Of a DNA stretch of 57,741 nucleotides, positions 17,657 to 26,610 are shown piece after piece. How positions within the stretch are numbered: position 1 is the first letter of the stretch; the number at the start of each line of letters is the position of its first letter. A program made the position numbers and the translations under genes. The stretch comes from an uncultured Chloroflexota bacterium (GTDB taxonomy: Bacteria; Chloroflexota; Limnocylindria; Limnocylindrales; Limnocylindraceae): the NCBI GenBank assembly GCA_903864185.1, contig CAIPEX010000025.1, positions 1 through 57,741 of the forward strand, given 5' to 3'. The notes beneath the pieces were generated by a model. That model saw nothing but the letters and a program-made list of their open reading frames with translations, searched no databases and was not told the origin of the DNA.

Positions 17657-18757
17657 ATGGACCTCCTTCGCGCGCTCCTTGAGTGGGTGGTCTCCCTGAT
17701 CGGACCCCTCGTCGCTCCCGACTGGGCAGCCCTGATCCGCCTCATCCCCATCGGCGTCCTCCTCCTCGTTGCCAGCTTCTACGGCTGGGTCCTCCTGCGC
17801 TATCGCCGCGCGGGGACGCGCCGCGTCGGTCACCCGCCACGTGCTCCGCGCGCGCCAGCAGGCATCCATCTCCCTGGTCCAAGCCTGGCGCCGTTCCTCA
17901 TCTCTGCTGCTGCGGCGGCGCTCTTCTTCTCAGCGGCGCTTGGTGGCATCGCCCTCCTCGTTGCGGCACTCTTCCTCGTCTTCGCGTTGATCGCCTGGGG
18001 CCGCGAGGCGGTGCATGAGTACGACGCACTCGGCGGCGTCCAGAGCCAGGCGCTCATCGCTGCTGACGCAGCGAACTCGACCGAACTACTGACTCCTGCC
18101 GGGCCACCAGATGGTGTGCACCTGCCGCCACCATCGCTCCTCCCCTTCCTCGTCAGCCTCGGCGCCGCAGTAATGCTCTTTGGTGCAGCGATCGGTCTCT
18201 CGTTCGTCTTGCTTGGCGCGCTCATGACCGTCCTCGCGCTCATCGGCTGGCTTATCGACTCTGGGCGGGAATATCGTGCAGTTGCCGAAGCAGATGCAAC
18301 GGGCCATCTGGTCTCACCAGCGCCAAAGCGCGCGCCACAGTTCGTCATCGCACTGATGTCGCTCCTCTTCGTTGTGGTTGGCGGCGCGCAGGCAGGGTTC
18401 TTCGCAAGCAGCGATGTGAGCCCGAGTCCAAGCCCATCGGGCAGCACGTGCGTTGCCGACGCGACAGGCGTTCTCACCGTGTGTGCCGAGCTCGTCGCCT
18501 TCTCGGTGCCAACCATCGAGATCGCCGCGGGAGCACCAACAAAGATTCGCTTCGTTAACTACGACGCTGGCGTGCCGCACAACATTGCCATCTACGAGGG
18601 GAGCGCCGATGCCAGTGGCACGCAGATCTTCAACGGCGAGATCTTTGCGGGCGTTGATGAGCGGACCTACGACATCCCTGCGCTCAATGCTGGAGCAACG
18701 TACGCATTCCTTTGCCTTGTGCACCCGAACATGGTCGGCACGGTGGTCGTGCAGTGA
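17657..18757 (+). CDS. Membrane-anchored cupredoxin with duplicated two-helix units
   Basis: A 366-residue protein in three parts. Residues 25-48 form one membrane helix. Residues 69-125 and 153-208 are two copies of a two-helix unit, each opening with G-I/V-H-L-P-x-P-S-L-x-P-F-L. After another helix (about 229-250) and a Ser/Pro linker comes a plastocyanin-like domain with type 1 copper ligands His308 (VPHNIAI), Cys353, His356 and Met359 (C-x2-H-P-x-M). The H-L-P-x-P-S motif recalls small haem-copper oxidase subunits, from memory. The domain probably sits outside and carries electrons. Its copper domain closely resembles that of the cytochrome c fusion at 21.7-22.7 kb. It overlaps the thioredoxin gene by GTGA. 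Confidence 0.75.
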   Translation: MDLLRALLEWVVSLIGPLVAPDWAALIRLIPIGVLLLVASFYGWVLLRYRRAGTRRVGHPPRAPRAPAGIHLPGPSLAPFLISAAAAALFFSAALGGIALLVAALFLVFALIAWGREAVHEYDALGGVQSQALIAADAANSTELLTPAGPPDGVHLPPPSLLPFLVSLGAAVMLFGAAIGLSFVLLGALMTVLALIGWLIDSGREYRAVAEADATGHLVSPAPKRAPQFVIALMSLLFVVVGGAQAGFFASSDVSPSPSPSGSTCVADATGVLTVCAELVAFSVPTIEIAAGAPTKIRFVNYDAGVPHNIAIYEGSADASGTQIFNGEIFAGVDERTYDIPALNAGATYAFLCLVHPNMVGTVVVQ

Positions 18758-20200: not shown

Positions 20201-21703
20201 CTACGGATCCTTTCGTCCAAGTTTCGCGCGCAGCCAGGCGGCGGCACGCTCACGCTGGGCATAGACGACGGCCGCAGCAAGGAGGAGGACGAAGTTCAGC
20301 GTCCATGCACCTGCTGCCGACAGATAGCCAAGCTGCTGGCCAACTTCACCCTGAATCGCAAGGCCCGGCACGGTGAGCCCGAAGAGTCCGAGTCGGAATA
20401 CCGGTGCCTTGGGTGATGTGCCTGCAATGAGTGTGCTGTTTGCAGTCGCGAGCGCGCTGGGGGTTGTGCCACCAATGAGTACGGCGTGTCCGCCAAGCAC
20501 GATGCCGTGTGCGCCGATGCGCGCGTTGTCGACGGGCAGATCATCTTGTGCGATCGTCGCCCACTCGCCAGTGAGTCCAGCGGCTGTTGGTGCGATCCAG
20601 TAGGTGCTCGTGACAGCCGAACCATCTGCTGCAACTCCACCAGCAACGTAGAGCGTGCCGTTCGCCGACCAGAGCGCTGCGCCCACGCGCGGCGAAGGGA
20701 GGAGCGCACCTTCTGCCGTCCATCGATAGATCTCGCCAATCGGTGTCTCGCCTTGCGCAGGATCTGGGGTTGCGGCTGGTGCGCCGTGGCCAGTTGCTGG
20801 ACTGTGTGCAACGGCAAGATCGCCGCGAAGTACCACGTTTGTCGCAACTGCTGCCTCTGCCTCACTGCCGCCCCACACATAGAGTGCATCGCCGACAAGT
20901 GCGGCCGCTGCGTCGGCACGTGCGGCTGGGAGTTCCATCAGTGGGACCCATGCCGCAAGGTCACCGCTCGACTGCAGGGCTGCCTTCCAGACGCTCGTTT
21001 GCGCAACGCCATTGGCGTCTCGGCCGCCGATAAGGATGAGTCCGTCACTGACCGCAACGAGTGCTGCGCCAGAGCGCGCGCTCGGGAGATCCAGCATGGT
21101 CGAAGGTGTCCAGGTGGCAATGAGGCCCGTGGTTGCATCTGGCGTGCCGACATAGACACTCGTCGTTGCCTTCACGTCTAGTGTCGCTCCGCCAACGACA
21201 TACGCCTTCCCGGCGAAGAAGGCTGCGGCAACATCGGTTCGCGGTGCCGGAAGTGGTGCACCGGCGCTCCATGTGCTGAGTCCGTCGGGGCCAACTTCGG
21301 CAACGGCGGTTCCCGTCGTGCCGCCACCGCCGCCCAGGTAGTAGAGATGCGCACCAGCTTGGACAAGCCCGCCGCCGACTCCGCCACCAGGGAGATCCGT
21401 GGTCGTGCCGCTCTTCCACGGGAGGAGCGCGCCGTTTGGCGCAGGGCACGGGAGCCCCTCATTCTCTGCTGGGCAGATGTTCACGAGCGAGAGACCGTTG
21501 AGGCCGAGCTCAACGGTTGGCGAGACGGTGAGGTAGTAGGCGCGGTCCGGGATGTAGCCAAGCATCATGATGATGACAAGCGTCCAGAGGATTGCGCGTA
21601 CGCCAGCCCATCCCCAGCCCGATGCATCGAGCAGGCCGAAGAGCACACGCTTCGGTGGCACGTTGCCACTCTCGAGCGCGCGTGGGGCGTTCGTTGTATT
21701 CAT
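20201..21703 (-). CDS. Membrane-anchored kelch-like beta-propeller protein
   Basis: A 500-residue protein with one helix near the N-terminus (about 34-52) and one near the C-terminus (about 470-488), enclosing a large outer domain. That domain has repeated kelch blades of the kind LPAPRTDVAAAFFAGKAYVVGG, with a paired Gly-Gly after each hydrophobic strand and an aligned Trp; I count about six units. It is the last gene of the flavoprotein-cytochrome b operon, with start ATG 21703 overlapping the TGA of the cytochrome c-cupredoxin gene. Such a propeller could be a scaffold or docking surface for that complex. I know of no standard bc complex with this subunit. Confidence 0.7.
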   Translation of the reverse strand: MNTTNAPRALESGNVPPKRVLFGLLDASGWGWAGVRAILWTLVIIMMLGYIPDRAYYLTVSPTVELGLNGLSLVNICPAENEGLPCPAPNGALLPWKSGTTTDLPGGGVGGGLVQAGAHLYYLGGGGGTTGTAVAEVGPDGLSTWSAGAPLPAPRTDVAAAFFAGKAYVVGGATLDVKATTSVYVGTPDATTGLIATWTPSTMLDLPSARSGAALVAVSDGLILIGGRDANGVAQTSVWKAALQSSGDLAAWVPLMELPAARADAAAALVGDALYVWGGSEAEAAVATNVVLRGDLAVAHSPATGHGAPAATPDPAQGETPIGEIYRWTAEGALLPSPRVGAALWSANGTLYVAGGVAADGSAVTSTYWIAPTAAGLTGEWATIAQDDLPVDNARIGAHGIVLGGHAVLIGGTTPSALATANSTLIAGTSPKAPVFRLGLFGLTVPGLAIQGEVGQQLGYLSAAGAWTLNFVLLLAAAVVYAQRERAAAWLRAKLGRKDP

Positions 21704-22707
21704 CACTTCGCCGTCAACGTTCCGACCATGTTCGGATGCACCGTGCAGACGAAGGCGTAGGTGCCCTTTGCGAGCGCAGGGATCGTGTAGGTCTGCTGCG
21801 CAATACCAGGGAAGATCGCCCCCCGGAACACCTCTGCACCAGTGGCGCTCCCTGTGTGAATCGCGACGTTATGCGGAATGCCCAGATCCTGGTTGTCAAA
21901 CGCGATCGCAAACGGAACGCCAGCGGTCACCGTGAGGCTCATCGTGGTGTACTGCACGCCCTGCGCAACGATGCTGTAGGTCTTGCCGGGTGCAACAGAG
22001 GGGCCGCCCGTTGGGGCTGGCGTTGGCGATGCAGCAAATGCATCGCTCCAGCAATCAGGAACTGGCGTTGCATCGGCTGCTGGAACATATGCTGCGTCGC
22101 GCCAGCCCGTTACCTGAACCCTCGCTCCCGTTGCAGGATCGGTCACGGTGATCGTGTCAGTGTTCGTTGAGCGGATCCAGGCAATCAACTCTTCAATCTC
22201 GCGATAGTTGAGCGGTCCACCATTCGTGTCAGACCAGACACCCATGAGTGAATTTGCATTGCCGCACACGTACCGGCCGCCGACGGTCAGCACATTCTTG
22301 AGGTATGCCGGGGTTAGATGCGAGAGCAGCTTCCCTTGATCGTTTAGCACTGGCCCAATGCCACCCTGCCCCTGTGCGCCGTGACAGCGCGCGCAGTTTG
22401 CCTGGAAGAGGTTGTAGCCACGTGTCACCGTTTCGAGGTACTGCTCCTCTTTCGCGGCATCAAGGCGCGCAGAGCCAGTGACACCTGGGAGTCCCTGGTC
22501 GTAGAAGGTATACACGATGACAAAAAGCGTGACGATGGCGATGCCGAGCAGTGCTGCGGCGCGCGAGGAGCCGCTCTGCTTGACAATCTTTGCCGCTCGC
22601 TCAGCATCGAGCCCGTGCGTATGAATTGGTGCAGGGCTTGAGAGGCGTGGCACTGGCGTGCTCGCCTTCTCTACTGGAACAGGGAGCTGCTTCTGCTCGT
22701 CGCTCAT
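21703..22707 (-). CDS. Membrane-anchored monohaem cytochrome c fused to a cupredoxin
   Basis: A 334-residue protein. A cytoplasmic N-terminus (1-48) is followed by a membrane helix (about 50-68). Then a class I cytochrome c domain has haem site C105-A-R-C108-H109 and likely axial Met155, and a linker with C148 and C219 may form a disulfide. The C-terminal plastocyanin-like domain has ligands His279 (IPHNVAI), Cys321, His324 and Met327. The start ATG 22707 overlaps the Rieske stop (TAATG). It takes the operon place of cytochrome c1/f. Electrons can plausibly pass Rieske to haem c to copper within one chain. The copper domain closely matches that of the 17.7-18.8 kb protein. Confidence 0.85.
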   Translation of the reverse strand: MSDEQKQLPVPVEKASTPVPRLSSPAPIHTHGLDAERAAKIVKQSGSSRAAALLGIAIVTLFVIVYTFYDQGLPGVTGSARLDAAKEEQYLETVTRGYNLFQANCARCHGAQGQGGIGPVLNDQGKLLSHLTPAYLKNVLTVGGRYVCGNANSLMGVWSDTNGGPLNYREIEELIAWIRSTNTDTITVTDPATGARVQVTGWRDAAYVPAADATPVPDCWSDAFAASPTPAPTGGPSVAPGKTYSIVAQGVQYTTMSLTVTAGVPFAIAFDNQDLGIPHNVAIHTGSATGAEVFRGAIFPGIAQQTYTIPALAKGTYAFVCTVHPNMVGTLTAK

Positions 22708-23375
22708 TAGATGCACCCCGTTGCGGCGCGTGGCGCTTCGATCCCTGGCTGCCCGAGCGCTACGGGCATGCCGCCAAGGTTGATCTTCCCCGTGTCGAGG
22801 GTGAGCACGCCGTCGGCGTCAACGCTCAAGGAGAAGCGGTCCATGCCGCGCGGCGCTGGGCCGAGTCCGTCTGCCTTCGTGCCGAGTCGGTCGTAGCGAC
22901 TGCCATGGCAGGCGCACTCAAGCCAGTAGGTCTTGATGCAGGGGTTTGGCTTGCAGCCAAGATGTGGGCAGCGTTGATAGAGGGCGCGAACGTTGAGCGC
23001 ACTCCCCTCGCCTGTTGGGTCGTCACCGGCGATGAACTCCTTCCGGCTCGGATCAACGAGCATGATGAAGGCGCGGGCGTCTTGTACATACGCGGGGTAG
23101 CCCTGGTCAATTGGAAGTCCCACGTTGGCGTTGATCAGTGACTGCAGCGTGCCGACGCGCACCTTGCCACCAAATCCCCCTTCGAGATTTGGCCAGAGGA
23201 AGCCGAGTGTGCCCGCAGTGACCTCGAGGAGCCAGAGACCGAAACCGGCGCCAATCGTGGTGCGCAAGAGTCGACGGCGCGAGATGCCCTGAACCTCTTC
23301 ATGGCGCAGCGCCTTGATGGTCTCGCCGGTCAAGGCCTGTGGCTTGTCGGCTGGCTCAACTTGATAGTGGCTCAT
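22707..23375 (-). CDS. Rieske [2Fe-2S] protein of a cytochrome b complex
   Basis: A 222-residue subunit. The start ATG 23375 overlaps the TGA of the subunit IV gene. Near residue 35 is SRRRLLRTT followed by a hydrophobic helix, consistent with a Tat-type membrane anchor. The cluster motifs are CPHLGC and CACHGS, supplying two Cys and two His ligands plus the disulfide pair. An additional Cys in KPNPCIK between them is unusual. It accepts an electron from quinol at the outer site and passes it to the cytochrome c domain encoded next. It follows the usual order after cytochrome b genes. Confidence 0.9.
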   Translation of the reverse strand: MSHYQVEPADKPQALTGETIKALRHEEVQGISRRRLLRTTIGAGFGLWLLEVTAGTLGFLWPNLEGGFGGKVRVGTLQSLINANVGLPIDQGYPAYVQDARAFIMLVDPSRKEFIAGDDPTGEGSALNVRALYQRCPHLGCKPNPCIKTYWLECACHGSRYDRLGTKADGLGPAPRGMDRFSLSVDADGVLTLDTGKINLGGMPVALGQPGIEAPRAATGCI

Positions 23376-23959
23376 AGGCTGAAGAAGAATCCGGTTGACC
23401 AGGGGAGGATGAACGAGTAGCCCGGCCCGCGGAAGAAGATTCCGATGAAGGTGACGGTGAGGCCGAGTGCCCAAAGGAGCGAGAAGAGCATCACCTCAAG
23501 CTTCCGATCCGACGGGCGCGTGCTGCGAATGTTGCGACGGTCAAGATACGGAATGAGCGCAGAGCCAACGAGCACGCCGATCGGCGTGAGCGCACCGGCA
23601 ACGGTCGGGTGGAAATAGGCGAGGAGCTCTTGGAGTCCGAGGAAATACCACGGCGCCTTTGCAACGGCGGGGGTGACGTTCGGGTTCGCAAGCTCTTCGA
23701 GTGGTGCATTGATGAAGAGTCCGAGCATGAGCAAGAAGATGCTCATGGCCACGGCGGCCAAGAACTCAATCGTTAGGAGGTGGGGCCAGGTCATCACCGT
23801 GTCGTCTGGCTCTTTTTGTACGCGCACGACGGCGTCTTGCTTTACCAGCGCCAAGAGGCGGTAGGGGCGCGCTGCCATCGGCACGCGCTGCTTATCAATC
23901 TCCGTCTGGCGCGACGGATCGACTGGCAGCGAGCTTGCGGGGCGCTGCTCGTCACTCAC
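23372..23959 (-). CDS. Cytochrome b subunit IV-type (C-terminal cytochrome b) protein
   Basis: A 195-residue protein with three membrane helices after a long cytoplasmic N-terminus containing TWPHLLTIEFLAA. The sequence AKAPWYFLGLQELLAYF holds the quinol-oxidation loop in which the family PEWY is shortened to APWY. It provides the outer quinol site together with the cytochrome b6 protein. It starts with GTG 23959, 6 bp after the b6 gene. The split layout is that of b6f-type complexes rather than one-piece bc1 cytochrome b. Confidence 0.88.
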   Translation of the reverse strand: MSDEQRPASSLPVDPSRQTEIDKQRVPMAARPYRLLALVKQDAVVRVQKEPDDTVMTWPHLLTIEFLAAVAMSIFLLMLGLFINAPLEELANPNVTPAVAKAPWYFLGLQELLAYFHPTVAGALTPIGVLVGSALIPYLDRRNIRSTRPSDRKLEVMLFSLLWALGLTVTFIGIFFRGPGYSFILPWSTGFFFSL

Positions 23960-23965
23960 GGCAGA

Positions 23966-24694
23966 TCACAGCGGTCCGCTGATTCCGCCGTCCTTGCGGA
24001 TCCGCCAGAAGTGGACCGCGAGGAAGACGGCCGCGAGGAGCGGCAGCACCATCACATGGAGCACATAGAAGCGAAGGAGCGTGTTCTGTCCCACCTCGAG
24101 GCCGCCGAGGAGGAGGAGCTTCGATGGCGTATTGAAGAGCGGCGCATAGCCGGCCATGTTCGATCCGATCGTGATCGCCCAGTAGGCGATCTGATCCCAT
24201 GGGAGCAGGTAGCCGGTGAAGCTGAGCATCATCGTCAAGAAGAGGAGGAGGACGCCGACCACCCAGTTGAATTCGCGTGGCGGCTTGTATGCGCCGTGAT
24301 AGAAGACGCGCATCATGTGAAGGAAGACGAAGAACACCATGAGGTGCGCGCCCCAGCGATGGATGTTGCGCGTGATCTGCCCGAATGGGACGAGCGTCTG
24401 GATGCGAATGATGTCGCTATACGCCTGCGTTGCAGAGGGGGCGTAGAAGAACATCAGGTAGACGCCGGTCACGGTAAGGACGAGGAAGAGGAAGAAGGAG
24501 AGCCCGCCGAGACAGAAGGTGTAGGCGAACTTCACGGCGTGCTGGCGTACACGCACTGGGTGAAGGTGGAGGAAGACGTTGTTCATCACCGCATAGGCAC
24601 GGCTCCGCTCGTCGCTCGGGTAGGCATTGCGGAAAATGGAGCGCCAAGCTGACGACCGTCGAACTGCCTGATCGACTCGCGCTAGAAGGCTCAT
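23966..24694 (-). CDS. Cytochrome b6-type protein (N-terminal cytochrome b)
   Basis: A 242-residue protein with four helices. The haem ligands are His112/His126 in helix B and His213/His228 in helix D. The 14 residues between the helix D histidines are the b6f-type spacing (bc1 has 13). Cys61 in FCLGGLSFF lies where b6 and Bacillus QcrB have the Cys that binds an extra covalent haem. The start is an ATGA overlap with the large flavoprotein upstream. It carries quinone chemistry and moves electrons across the membrane with subunit IV and the Rieske protein. Confidence 0.92.
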
Positions 24695-26523
24695 TGCGCT
24701 CCTCCCCCTGTGCCGGCAACCCCTGCGAGCTGCCCATCTCGGTATGACTCCTTATAGAGGCGACCATCCGAGCTGATCTCCTGCATCTCGAACCTCTCCA
24801 TCGTAATGGCGTCGAACGGACAGCGCTTGACGCAGAGGGCGCAGCGGATGCAGCGCTCCTCGTCGAGGATCATGGCCGCGCCGTTCTCCCAGCCATACGC
24901 CTCGCTGAGCACGGGGAGCTGCCCCTCGGCCTTCAGCTGGTTGATATCCACCATATGGATGACCCCCTCGGGGCAGACATCGGCGCAGGCGCCGCACAAG
25001 ACGCAGCGCATCGGATCGAACCAGATGTTGTAGTTGCACATGAGGCAGCGGGTGCTCTCGGCGACCGCCTGCTGCGCCCCGTAACCAAGCTCCACCTGGG
25101 TGGTGAAGTTCACCGTTGGGTCGGCAGAGGGGAGGCGCGCTGCAAGCGGGAGCACGGGGATGTGCTGGCGCGGGATGGTGTCGTAGAACTCAGGCATGTC
25201 GTGGCGCCACGAACTCGTGACGCGCACATTCGCATCGACCGTCACCGTTGCCTGGCCCGCAAGGTAGCGATCGATTGCATAGGCGCACTTCTTCGCGTGA
25301 CCGGCCGCCTCGATCATCGTCGCTGGCCCAGTGACAAAATCGCCACACGCCCACACGCCACGGATGTTGGTGGCGTAGGTTGCCGGGTCAACCTTCACGC
25401 GACCGCGTGCAACTTCGAAGCTGCTCTGCACGGGAAGGAAGCCGAGGTCGGCCGCCTGCGAAACCGCCGGGATCACCGTGTCAGCAGGGATGATGAATTC
25501 TGATCCTTCAATCGGCACGGGGCTACGTCGGCCGGAGGCGTCGGGTTCGCCGAGGCGATTCTTAATCATGCGCACCCCGGTGATGTGGCCGTTCTCACCG
25601 ACCAGCTCGAGTGGCGAGACAAGGAAGTCCATGCGCACGCCCTCGCGCTCGGTCTCGCCCAACTCCTCTTCGTCGACAACGAGTTCGGCACGGGTGCGGC
25701 GATATGCAATCGTGACGCGCTCGGCACCGTGTCGGAGCGAGGTGCGCGAGCAGTCCATCGCCGTGTAGCCACCACCGATGACGACGACATCCTTACCCAC
25801 GCTGATCGGCTTTCCGAGGTTTGCATCTTTCATGAAATCAACGCCGTAGACGAGGCCGTCGAGGTCGGCGCCAGGGATGTCGAGGGCGACCGCGTTCATC
25901 GCACCAGCACAGATCGCAATCGCGTCGTAGTCGGCCTGCACCTGCTCAAAGCTCAGCTCGCGGCCGATCTCGGTGTTGTAGACAAACTTCACGCCGAGCC
26001 GCTCAATCAGCCGCACGTCGGTCTCGATCGCCTCGCGAGGGAGGCGGAATGCCGGCACGCCAATGAGCATCGTGCCGCCGCCGTACGGGAGGCTGTCATA
26101 CACGGTGACCTGGTAGCCCTTTACTGCAAGCTCGCGCGCCACAGAGAGGCCGGCGGGGCCGGCGCCGATCACGGCAACGCGCTCGGCGCGCGGCGAGATC
26201 GCTGGAGCGACATCGGGGATCCCCGATGCTGCGTGCCACTCGACGAGGAAGCGCTTCATCGCCCGGATCGCGAGTGGCCGATCAATATCGCCACGGCGGC
26301 AGGCCCGCTCGCACGGTGCCGAGCAGACGTAGGAGCACATTGCAGCGATGGGGTTTGGCTCGCGGGAGAGGATGTAGCCCTCTTCGAAGCGTCCTTCGGC
26401 GGCGAGGTTGAGGTAGCCGCGGCAGTTGGTGCCGACGGGACAGGCCTCCTGGCACTCAATGTTGCACTGCAACCATGAGGCGTCTACCGGCTGGACGAGG
26501 AAGTCCTGGTTCGCGAGAGTCAC
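24691..26523 (-). CDS. FAD/NAD(P)-dependent FeS oxidoreductase (GltD-like with C-terminal 2[4Fe-4S])
   Basis: A 610-residue cytoplasmic protein from GTG 26523 (AAAGG six bases upstream; TTG 26529 is the alternative). The N-terminal cysteine-rich domain has [15 protein letters not shown] plus [13 protein letters not shown], as in the glutamate synthase small subunit. FAD site [11 protein letters not shown] and NAD(P) site [11 protein letters not shown] follow. The tail contains [17 protein letters not shown] and [12 protein letters not shown], two ferredoxin-type clusters. It leads the operon for cytochrome b6, subunit IV, Rieske and c-cupredoxin, so it probably exchanges electrons between NAD(P)H or ferredoxin and the quinone complex. 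No gltB is nearby. Direction and partner are inferred. Confidence 0.88.
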
Positions 26524-26610
26524 ATTCAACCTTTCCTTGGGTCGCGCGACGGGGTTACTCCTCCGTGATCGTATCAGGGAGCCCTAAGCGCCGTGCTCAG
26601 CGAGGAACTG

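Follow-up and report, generated by a model that had tools for sequence, protein, structure and literature searches.

A cytochrome c-cupredoxin fusion in the c-subunit position of a b6f-like complex of Limnocylindrales

The window, a stretch of 57,741 nucleotides from an uncultured Chloroflexota bacterium of the order Limnocylindrales (GCA_903864185.1, contig CAIPEX010000025.1), carries on one strand, in this order, genes for a GltD-like flavoprotein, PetB, PetD, a Rieske protein, a cytochrome c-cupredoxin fusion and a kelch-repeat membrane protein (Table 1). Stop and start codons of neighbouring genes overlap (TAATG at the Rieske-fusion junction, TGATG at the fusion-kelch junction), which suggests one translationally coupled unit. 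The petB-petD-Rieske-fusion order is identical in relatives from the same order wherever the contig is long enough. Within the order the bc operon opens with the GltD-like gene, as it also does in class members of families f3, f4 and f5 and at loci L214 and L255; the product of this gene is a possible entry point for NAD(P)H or ferredoxin into the bc complex. The kelch-repeat gene ends the operon across the whole order.

Table 1. Genes and features of the fusion locus, with positions in the window
Feature	Position	Strand	Evidence
COX4-like multi-TM protein with C-terminal cupredoxin	17657-18757	plus	46% identity to the fusion's cupredoxin; outside the cox operon
Kelch-repeat protein, last gene of the cluster, hydrophobic segments at the termini	20201-21706	minus	start overlaps fusion stop
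Cytochrome c-cupredoxin fusion, putative c-type subunit of b6f-like complex, 334 aa	21703-22707	minus	single open frame
Type 1 cupredoxin domain, ~residues 243-334	21706-21981	minus	PF13473; pLDDT 91-98
Copper loop C321-T-V-H324-P-N-M327, amicyanin-type C-x2-H-x2-M	21727-21747	minus	aligned with amicyanin CTPHPFM
His279, putative copper ligand	21871-21873	minus	aligned with amicyanin ligand histidine
Flexible linker, ~residues 220-242, rich in Pro/Ala/Ser/Gly/Thr	21982-22050	minus	pLDDT 38-44
Cys219, proposed disulfide partner of Cys148	22051-22053	minus	46/46
Cytochrome c domain, ~residues 88-180	22168-22446	minus	Pfam PF13442/PF00034; mean identity 0.70
Met155, likely distal haem ligand	22243-22245	minus	47/47 invariant; ligation putative
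Cys148, proposed disulfide partner of Cys219	22264-22266	minus	47/47
CARCH haem c attachment site, residues 105-109	22381-22395	minus	CxxCH 47/47
Single transmembrane helix, ~residues 50-72	22492-22560	minus	AF2 helix 35-71
Rieske [2Fe-2S] subunit	22707-23375	minus	PF00355; ligand motifs CPH and CACH invariant 23/23
petD / subunit IV	23372-23959	minus	PF00032
petB / cytochrome b6	23966-24694	minus	PF00033; haem b histidines 112, 126, 213, 228 and Cys61 in FCLGG
GltD-like flavin/4Fe-4S oxidoreductase, opening the cluster	24691-26529	minus

The plus strand opposite the fusion is interrupted by stop codons and is non-coding. In the minus-strand frame, the residue numbers that an earlier note on this DNA had assigned to the CARCH site, Met155, His279, Cys321, His324 and Met327 are all correct, and its description of the chain as membrane-anchored agrees with one transmembrane helix. 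This helix is the sole case in the assembly of a strongly hydrophobic stretch lying 5' of a CxxCH, and the ~50 residues before it would be cytosolic. Pfam searches matched the fusion to Cytochrome_CBB3 (E 2.8e-8), Cytochrom_C (E 4.4e-8) and Cupredoxin_1 (E 7.2e-9), each above the curated cut-off, and a short beta region lies between the cytochrome c domain and the linker. In a PDB sequence match, the ligands of amicyanin line up with His279 and C321-x2-H324-x2-M327.

We aligned 47 orthologues of the fusion from Limnocylindrales, the nearest relatives among named genomes being Candidatus Limnocylindrus and Aquidulcis MAGs (Chloroflexota). The haem attachment site and Met155 are present in every row, consistent with the proposal that Met155 is the likely haem ligand. 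Cys321 and Met327 occur in 42 of the 42 rows that extend into the cupredoxin domain, and His279 in 44 of 45, the lone exception (L050) being out of frame in that part. His324 is present also in five rows where the alignment shifts its position; these come from five genomes of family f2 with a longer, azurin-type loop (C-x4-H-x3-M). The copper ligands are thus kept in every row with a complete, in-frame C-terminus, so the earlier reading of both sites as intact extends to the orthologues. Cys148 and Cys219, both absent from that reading, are invariant as well and likely form a disulfide, judging from their conservation.

Frame splits in L030 and L050 raised the alternative of separate cytochrome c and cupredoxin genes, which was rejected for L050, a single frameshifted coding region; its contig is also present among the named genomes, as L144, and is out of frame there too. 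In family f2, no match for the fusion turned up in the majority of genus g3 genomes (G020, G034 and others), and the two genomes checked lacked a close cytochrome b; this genus may have lost the bc complex.

An AlphaFold2 model built from 63 sequences reached a mean pLDDT of 80.8, with high values in the cupredoxin and values below 50 for residues 226-239. Searched with Foldseek, the copper domain has its nearest PDB folds in Chloroflexus auracyanin (1qhq, E 2.8e-8) and amicyanin (1id2, E 7.8e-8). It combines the type 1 cupredoxin fold with the His-Cys-His-Met ligand set, and would accordingly be expected, on its ligands, to hold a metal-loaded blue type 1 copper centre. Mean identity within the order is 0.34 in the linker, compared with 0.70 in the haem domain, the best-conserved region, and 0.45 in the cupredoxin. 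Measured from Cys219 to the first strand, the linker spans 19-40 residues among orthologues and is 75% Pro/Ala/Ser/Gly/Thr. Its predicted disorder (pLDDT 38-44) and variable length speak against reading the suggested two-centre wire within the chain as a fixed one; because of them, the fusion looks like a tethered, swinging carrier rather than a rigid conductor.

The neighbouring genes point to a b6f-like complex. The four haem b histidines of PetB and the Cys of FCLGG are kept in 17 of 17 sequences and the Rieske protein in the window retains its cluster ligand motifs, CPHLGC and CACHGS, from which we classify the complex as b6f-like. In b6f complexes the Cys of FCLGG carries haem ci, which would make PetB Cys61 a putative haem ci site. 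The Rieske subunit also has an extra invariant Cys close to its C-terminus (ATGCI, 23/23). Synteny places the fusion in the same slot of the Rieske/cytochrome b operon as cytochrome c1/f, in line with the position first proposed for it. Cytochrome b and Rieske genes are encoded together with it in the window and in those order relatives with enough contig, and the chain has a membrane anchor and a CxxCH with a putative distal ligand. On sequence grounds, the fusion would be the c subunit assembled in this complex and reduced by quinol.

Several established classes were considered for the complex and its c subunit. Alternative complex III, which dispenses with the pair of cytochrome b and bc-type Rieske protein in oxidising quinol, was rejected, as genuine petB, petD and Rieske genes with their ligands are present. 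The fusion has no PF02167 match at E 0.01 and its anchor is N-terminal, not C-terminal as in cytochrome c1. It matches no cytochrome f family, and its haem domain is mostly helical behind an N-terminal anchor in the AF2 model, whereas cytochrome f is largely of beta structure and uses its N-terminal amine to ligate haem. It also differs from the QcrC-type di-haem c subunit in having only one CxxCH and a cupredoxin as second domain.

In other families of the class (f3, f4 and f5), the last component of the same operon is a c subunit that has two CxxCH motifs and lacks a cupredoxin. Across a phylum-wide sample this di-haem form is the commonest and occurs in many families, and haem-plus-copper c subunits recur in f13, f21, f35 and f38 and in f56, f76, f78 and f82. 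A petB/petD tree of 73 rows implies that the haem/copper state switched, by gain or loss, at least three times within Chloroflexota. The copper-bearing Limnocylindrales are sister to the di-haem family f4 (support 100/98), and a single clade of all copper-type c subunits was rejected (AU p = 3e-163); forcing Limnocylindrales together with the f13/f21/f35/f38 group alone gave p = 0.024.

Two further arrangements were seen in the sample. In f21, the c subunits of two petB-petD-Rieske operons (L225, 7983-9080, plus strand; L229, 3632-4702, minus strand) have an intact copper loop and no CxxCH, which is replaced by CTNSCF / CTDDCY; with the copper loop kept, the haem has apparently been lost. In f76, the c subunit at L250 (5571-6845, plus strand) combines a single haem site with a pair of cupredoxin loops (CNVPGHKDAGM and CNVPGHKEAGM) in the same chain.

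The window's assembly comprises 1.12 Mb and is 92% complete. Within it, a search with PF13442 and PF00034 returned the fusion gene as sole match. All 78 CxxCH codon patterns were also read in frame, requiring an ORF no shorter than 80 aa and an upstream membrane or signal segment, and in this 92% complete assembly they yielded no exported CxxCH protein besides the fusion. A second cytochrome c elsewhere in the genome is still conceivable, because ~8% of it is missing.

The genome encodes one COX1 and one COX2. Its cox operon encodes COX2, which is of CuA type and has no carrier fused to it, together with COX1, COX3 and a COX4-like protein that carries a cupredoxin at its C-terminus. Divergently beside COX2 on contig C6 lies a gene (L056, 2430-3686, minus strand) for an N-terminally anchored protein with three sulfocyanin-like cupredoxin domains, each with an H...C-x4-H-x4-M set, and contig C47 encodes a NirK-like copper protein whose N-terminal part is a cupredoxin domain (L068, 1168-2553, plus strand). 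No soluble single-domain cupredoxin was found in the genome. The claim that the fusion would make a soluble carrier unnecessary is therefore plausible for cytochrome c, given the lack of another exported CxxCH protein in the assembly, but unproven for copper, given the anchored cupredoxins on oxidase-type subunits and the sulfocyanin-like triple protein.

Copper heads occur on oxidase subunits of related families too. In f2, C-terminal cupredoxins are found on both COX2 and the COX4-like subunit, and in f4 they were seen on COX2 only; the COX2 fusions are L057, L058, L059, L060, L061 and L062 in f2, and L256-L260 and L268 in f4. A strict link between copper-type c subunits and copper-bearing COX2 was rejected: f4 has COX2::cupredoxin beside c subunits of the di-haem type, and the reverse holds in the genome of the window.

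A tree built on few columns from 69 cupredoxin domains clusters the heads mostly by lineage and not by host protein: COX2 and COX4 heads pair together in G044 and in G033, and the c-subunit heads of genus g1 cluster with a COX4 head of the same genus. Across nine genomes and ~100 columns, c-subunit and oxidase heads from the same genome shared an identity of 0.489, compared with 0.432 for shuffled pairs (p = 0.0005), and COX2 and COX4 heads 0.54 compared with 0.45 (p = 0.0014), a modest likeness in both cases and one in which related genomes are not independent. It may reflect gene conversion, domain trading or shared selection.

We consider it probable that electrons follow a swinging-cupredoxin route from quinol through Rieske, haem c and type 1 copper to an aa3-type oxidase, leaving mobile cytochrome c unused. 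Quinol would be oxidised by the b6f-like complex, its electron passing to the Rieske [2Fe-2S] cluster and on to the membrane-proximal domain with its haem c (Cys105/Cys108/His109, Met155). The cupredoxin, on its ~20-residue flexible linker, would dock on the haem domain, accept the electron at its type 1 copper and swing out to the oxidase, entering at CuA or via the cupredoxin head of the COX4-like subunit. It would act in place of the second haem domain that di-haem (QcrC-type) c subunits carry, a position we assign to it because the same operon of other families carries such a subunit. Actinobacterial di-haem QcrC passes electrons straight to aa3, and C. glutamicum apparently has no other cytochrome c (PMC9145763); on this model, hand-over to the oxidase would most likely proceed without a soluble cytochrome c. 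Metal loading, the order of electron flow and the direct hand-over are what we infer here.

Among the other readings, the tethered cupredoxin could reduce another copper carrier, such as the triple sulfocyanin-like protein, which would in turn reduce CuA. The divergent position of that gene next to COX2 and its three complete ligand sets favour such a relay; we think it rather unlikely, since COX2 is of the plain CuA kind and lacks an added head, the genome yielded no soluble single-domain cupredoxin and the additional step is unnecessary. Cupredoxins are frequent donors to NirK, and the NirK-like protein on contig C47, with its own N-terminal cupredoxin, could be a second acceptor fed by the copper head, with the oxidase being reduced directly by the haem domain. 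Branching of this kind seems improbable, as the fusion is found order-wide and its copper sits exactly at the second-haem position of the di-haem relatives.

Very improbable, in our judgement, is a C-terminal domain that stores or delivers copper for CuA/CuB assembly and carries no electrons, even though the window encodes an HMA-domain P-type ATPase and CtaG and similar heads occur on COX2 and COX4-like proteins. The invariant Cys-His-His-Met type 1 set differs from the His/Met motif carried by PCuAC chaperones (PMC9145763), and the domain takes the place of a haem domain in relatives.

Beyond the swinging-cupredoxin route, the comparisons across the phylum allow a wider and tentative picture, which we hold with slightly less than even confidence. 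The end domain of the bc c subunit would be a plug-in slot in which haem c and type 1 copper were exchanged at least three times, and copper heads would have been traded, or have co-evolved, between the oxidase of a cell and its quinol-oxidising complex. In f21 (L225, L229), haem would have been lost and the Rieske protein would pass electrons to copper, and the window's organism would respire on tethered copper heads only, with no mobile cytochrome c.

We found no description of a cytochrome c-cupredoxin bc subunit in the open literature, subscription papers being outside the scope of the search. Within that literature, the component parts are of known kinds, and what is new is their combination in a bc c subunit. 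Bc complexes with fused carriers, such as the actinobacterial ones, have been described with a second haem, and the fusion is the copper version. Its conservation throughout an order some of whose members are abundant in lakes indicates that the kind of the last carrier is exchangeable with the complex unchanged. The natural series from di-haem through haem plus copper to apparently copper only offers a test of what the distal carrier must supply. For this freshwater Chloroflexota bacterium, the copper version also predicts a respiratory chain whose sole cytochrome c belongs to the bc complex.

Among known systems, the fusion is closest to actinobacterial QcrC, the di-haem cytochrome cc of the bcc-aa3 supercomplex, which also serves a Rieske/cytochrome b complex as c subunit and has two redox domains per chain; the top PDB sequence match of the fusion is a QcrC-type c subunit. 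The fusion differs in that the second redox domain is type 1 copper rather than haem c, in its single N-terminal anchor and in its score of 27 bits, compared with the NCBIfam QcrC cut-off of 200, and the cytochrome b of the window's operon is split in the manner of b6f. It lacks the defining features of di-haem QcrC, c1 and f, yet by analogy would work like QcrC. The di-haem c subunits of sister families (f3, f4, f5 and others) share its operon order and a related proximal cytochrome c domain, and within the class also the GltD-like first gene; unlike the fusion, they have a second CxxCH and no copper loop in the distal domain.

The cupredoxin itself resembles auracyanin and amicyanin in fold and ligand set, with a loop of amicyanin's length, but scores 30.9 bits against a cut-off of 110 for the amicyanin family and is covalently joined to a cytochrome c in a bc complex. 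In Archaea, the blue copper proteins sulfocyanin and halocyanin replace cytochrome c as the step that links a bc-like complex to the oxidase (PMC3062577); unlike the fusion, these are separate proteins with no haem c domain attached. The caa3-type oxidases, in which COX2 is fused to cytochrome c, also join a carrier domain to a membrane complex, and COX2::cupredoxin of f2 and f4 is their copper counterpart, whereas the fusion lies on the quinol-oxidising side and combines haem and copper in one chain.
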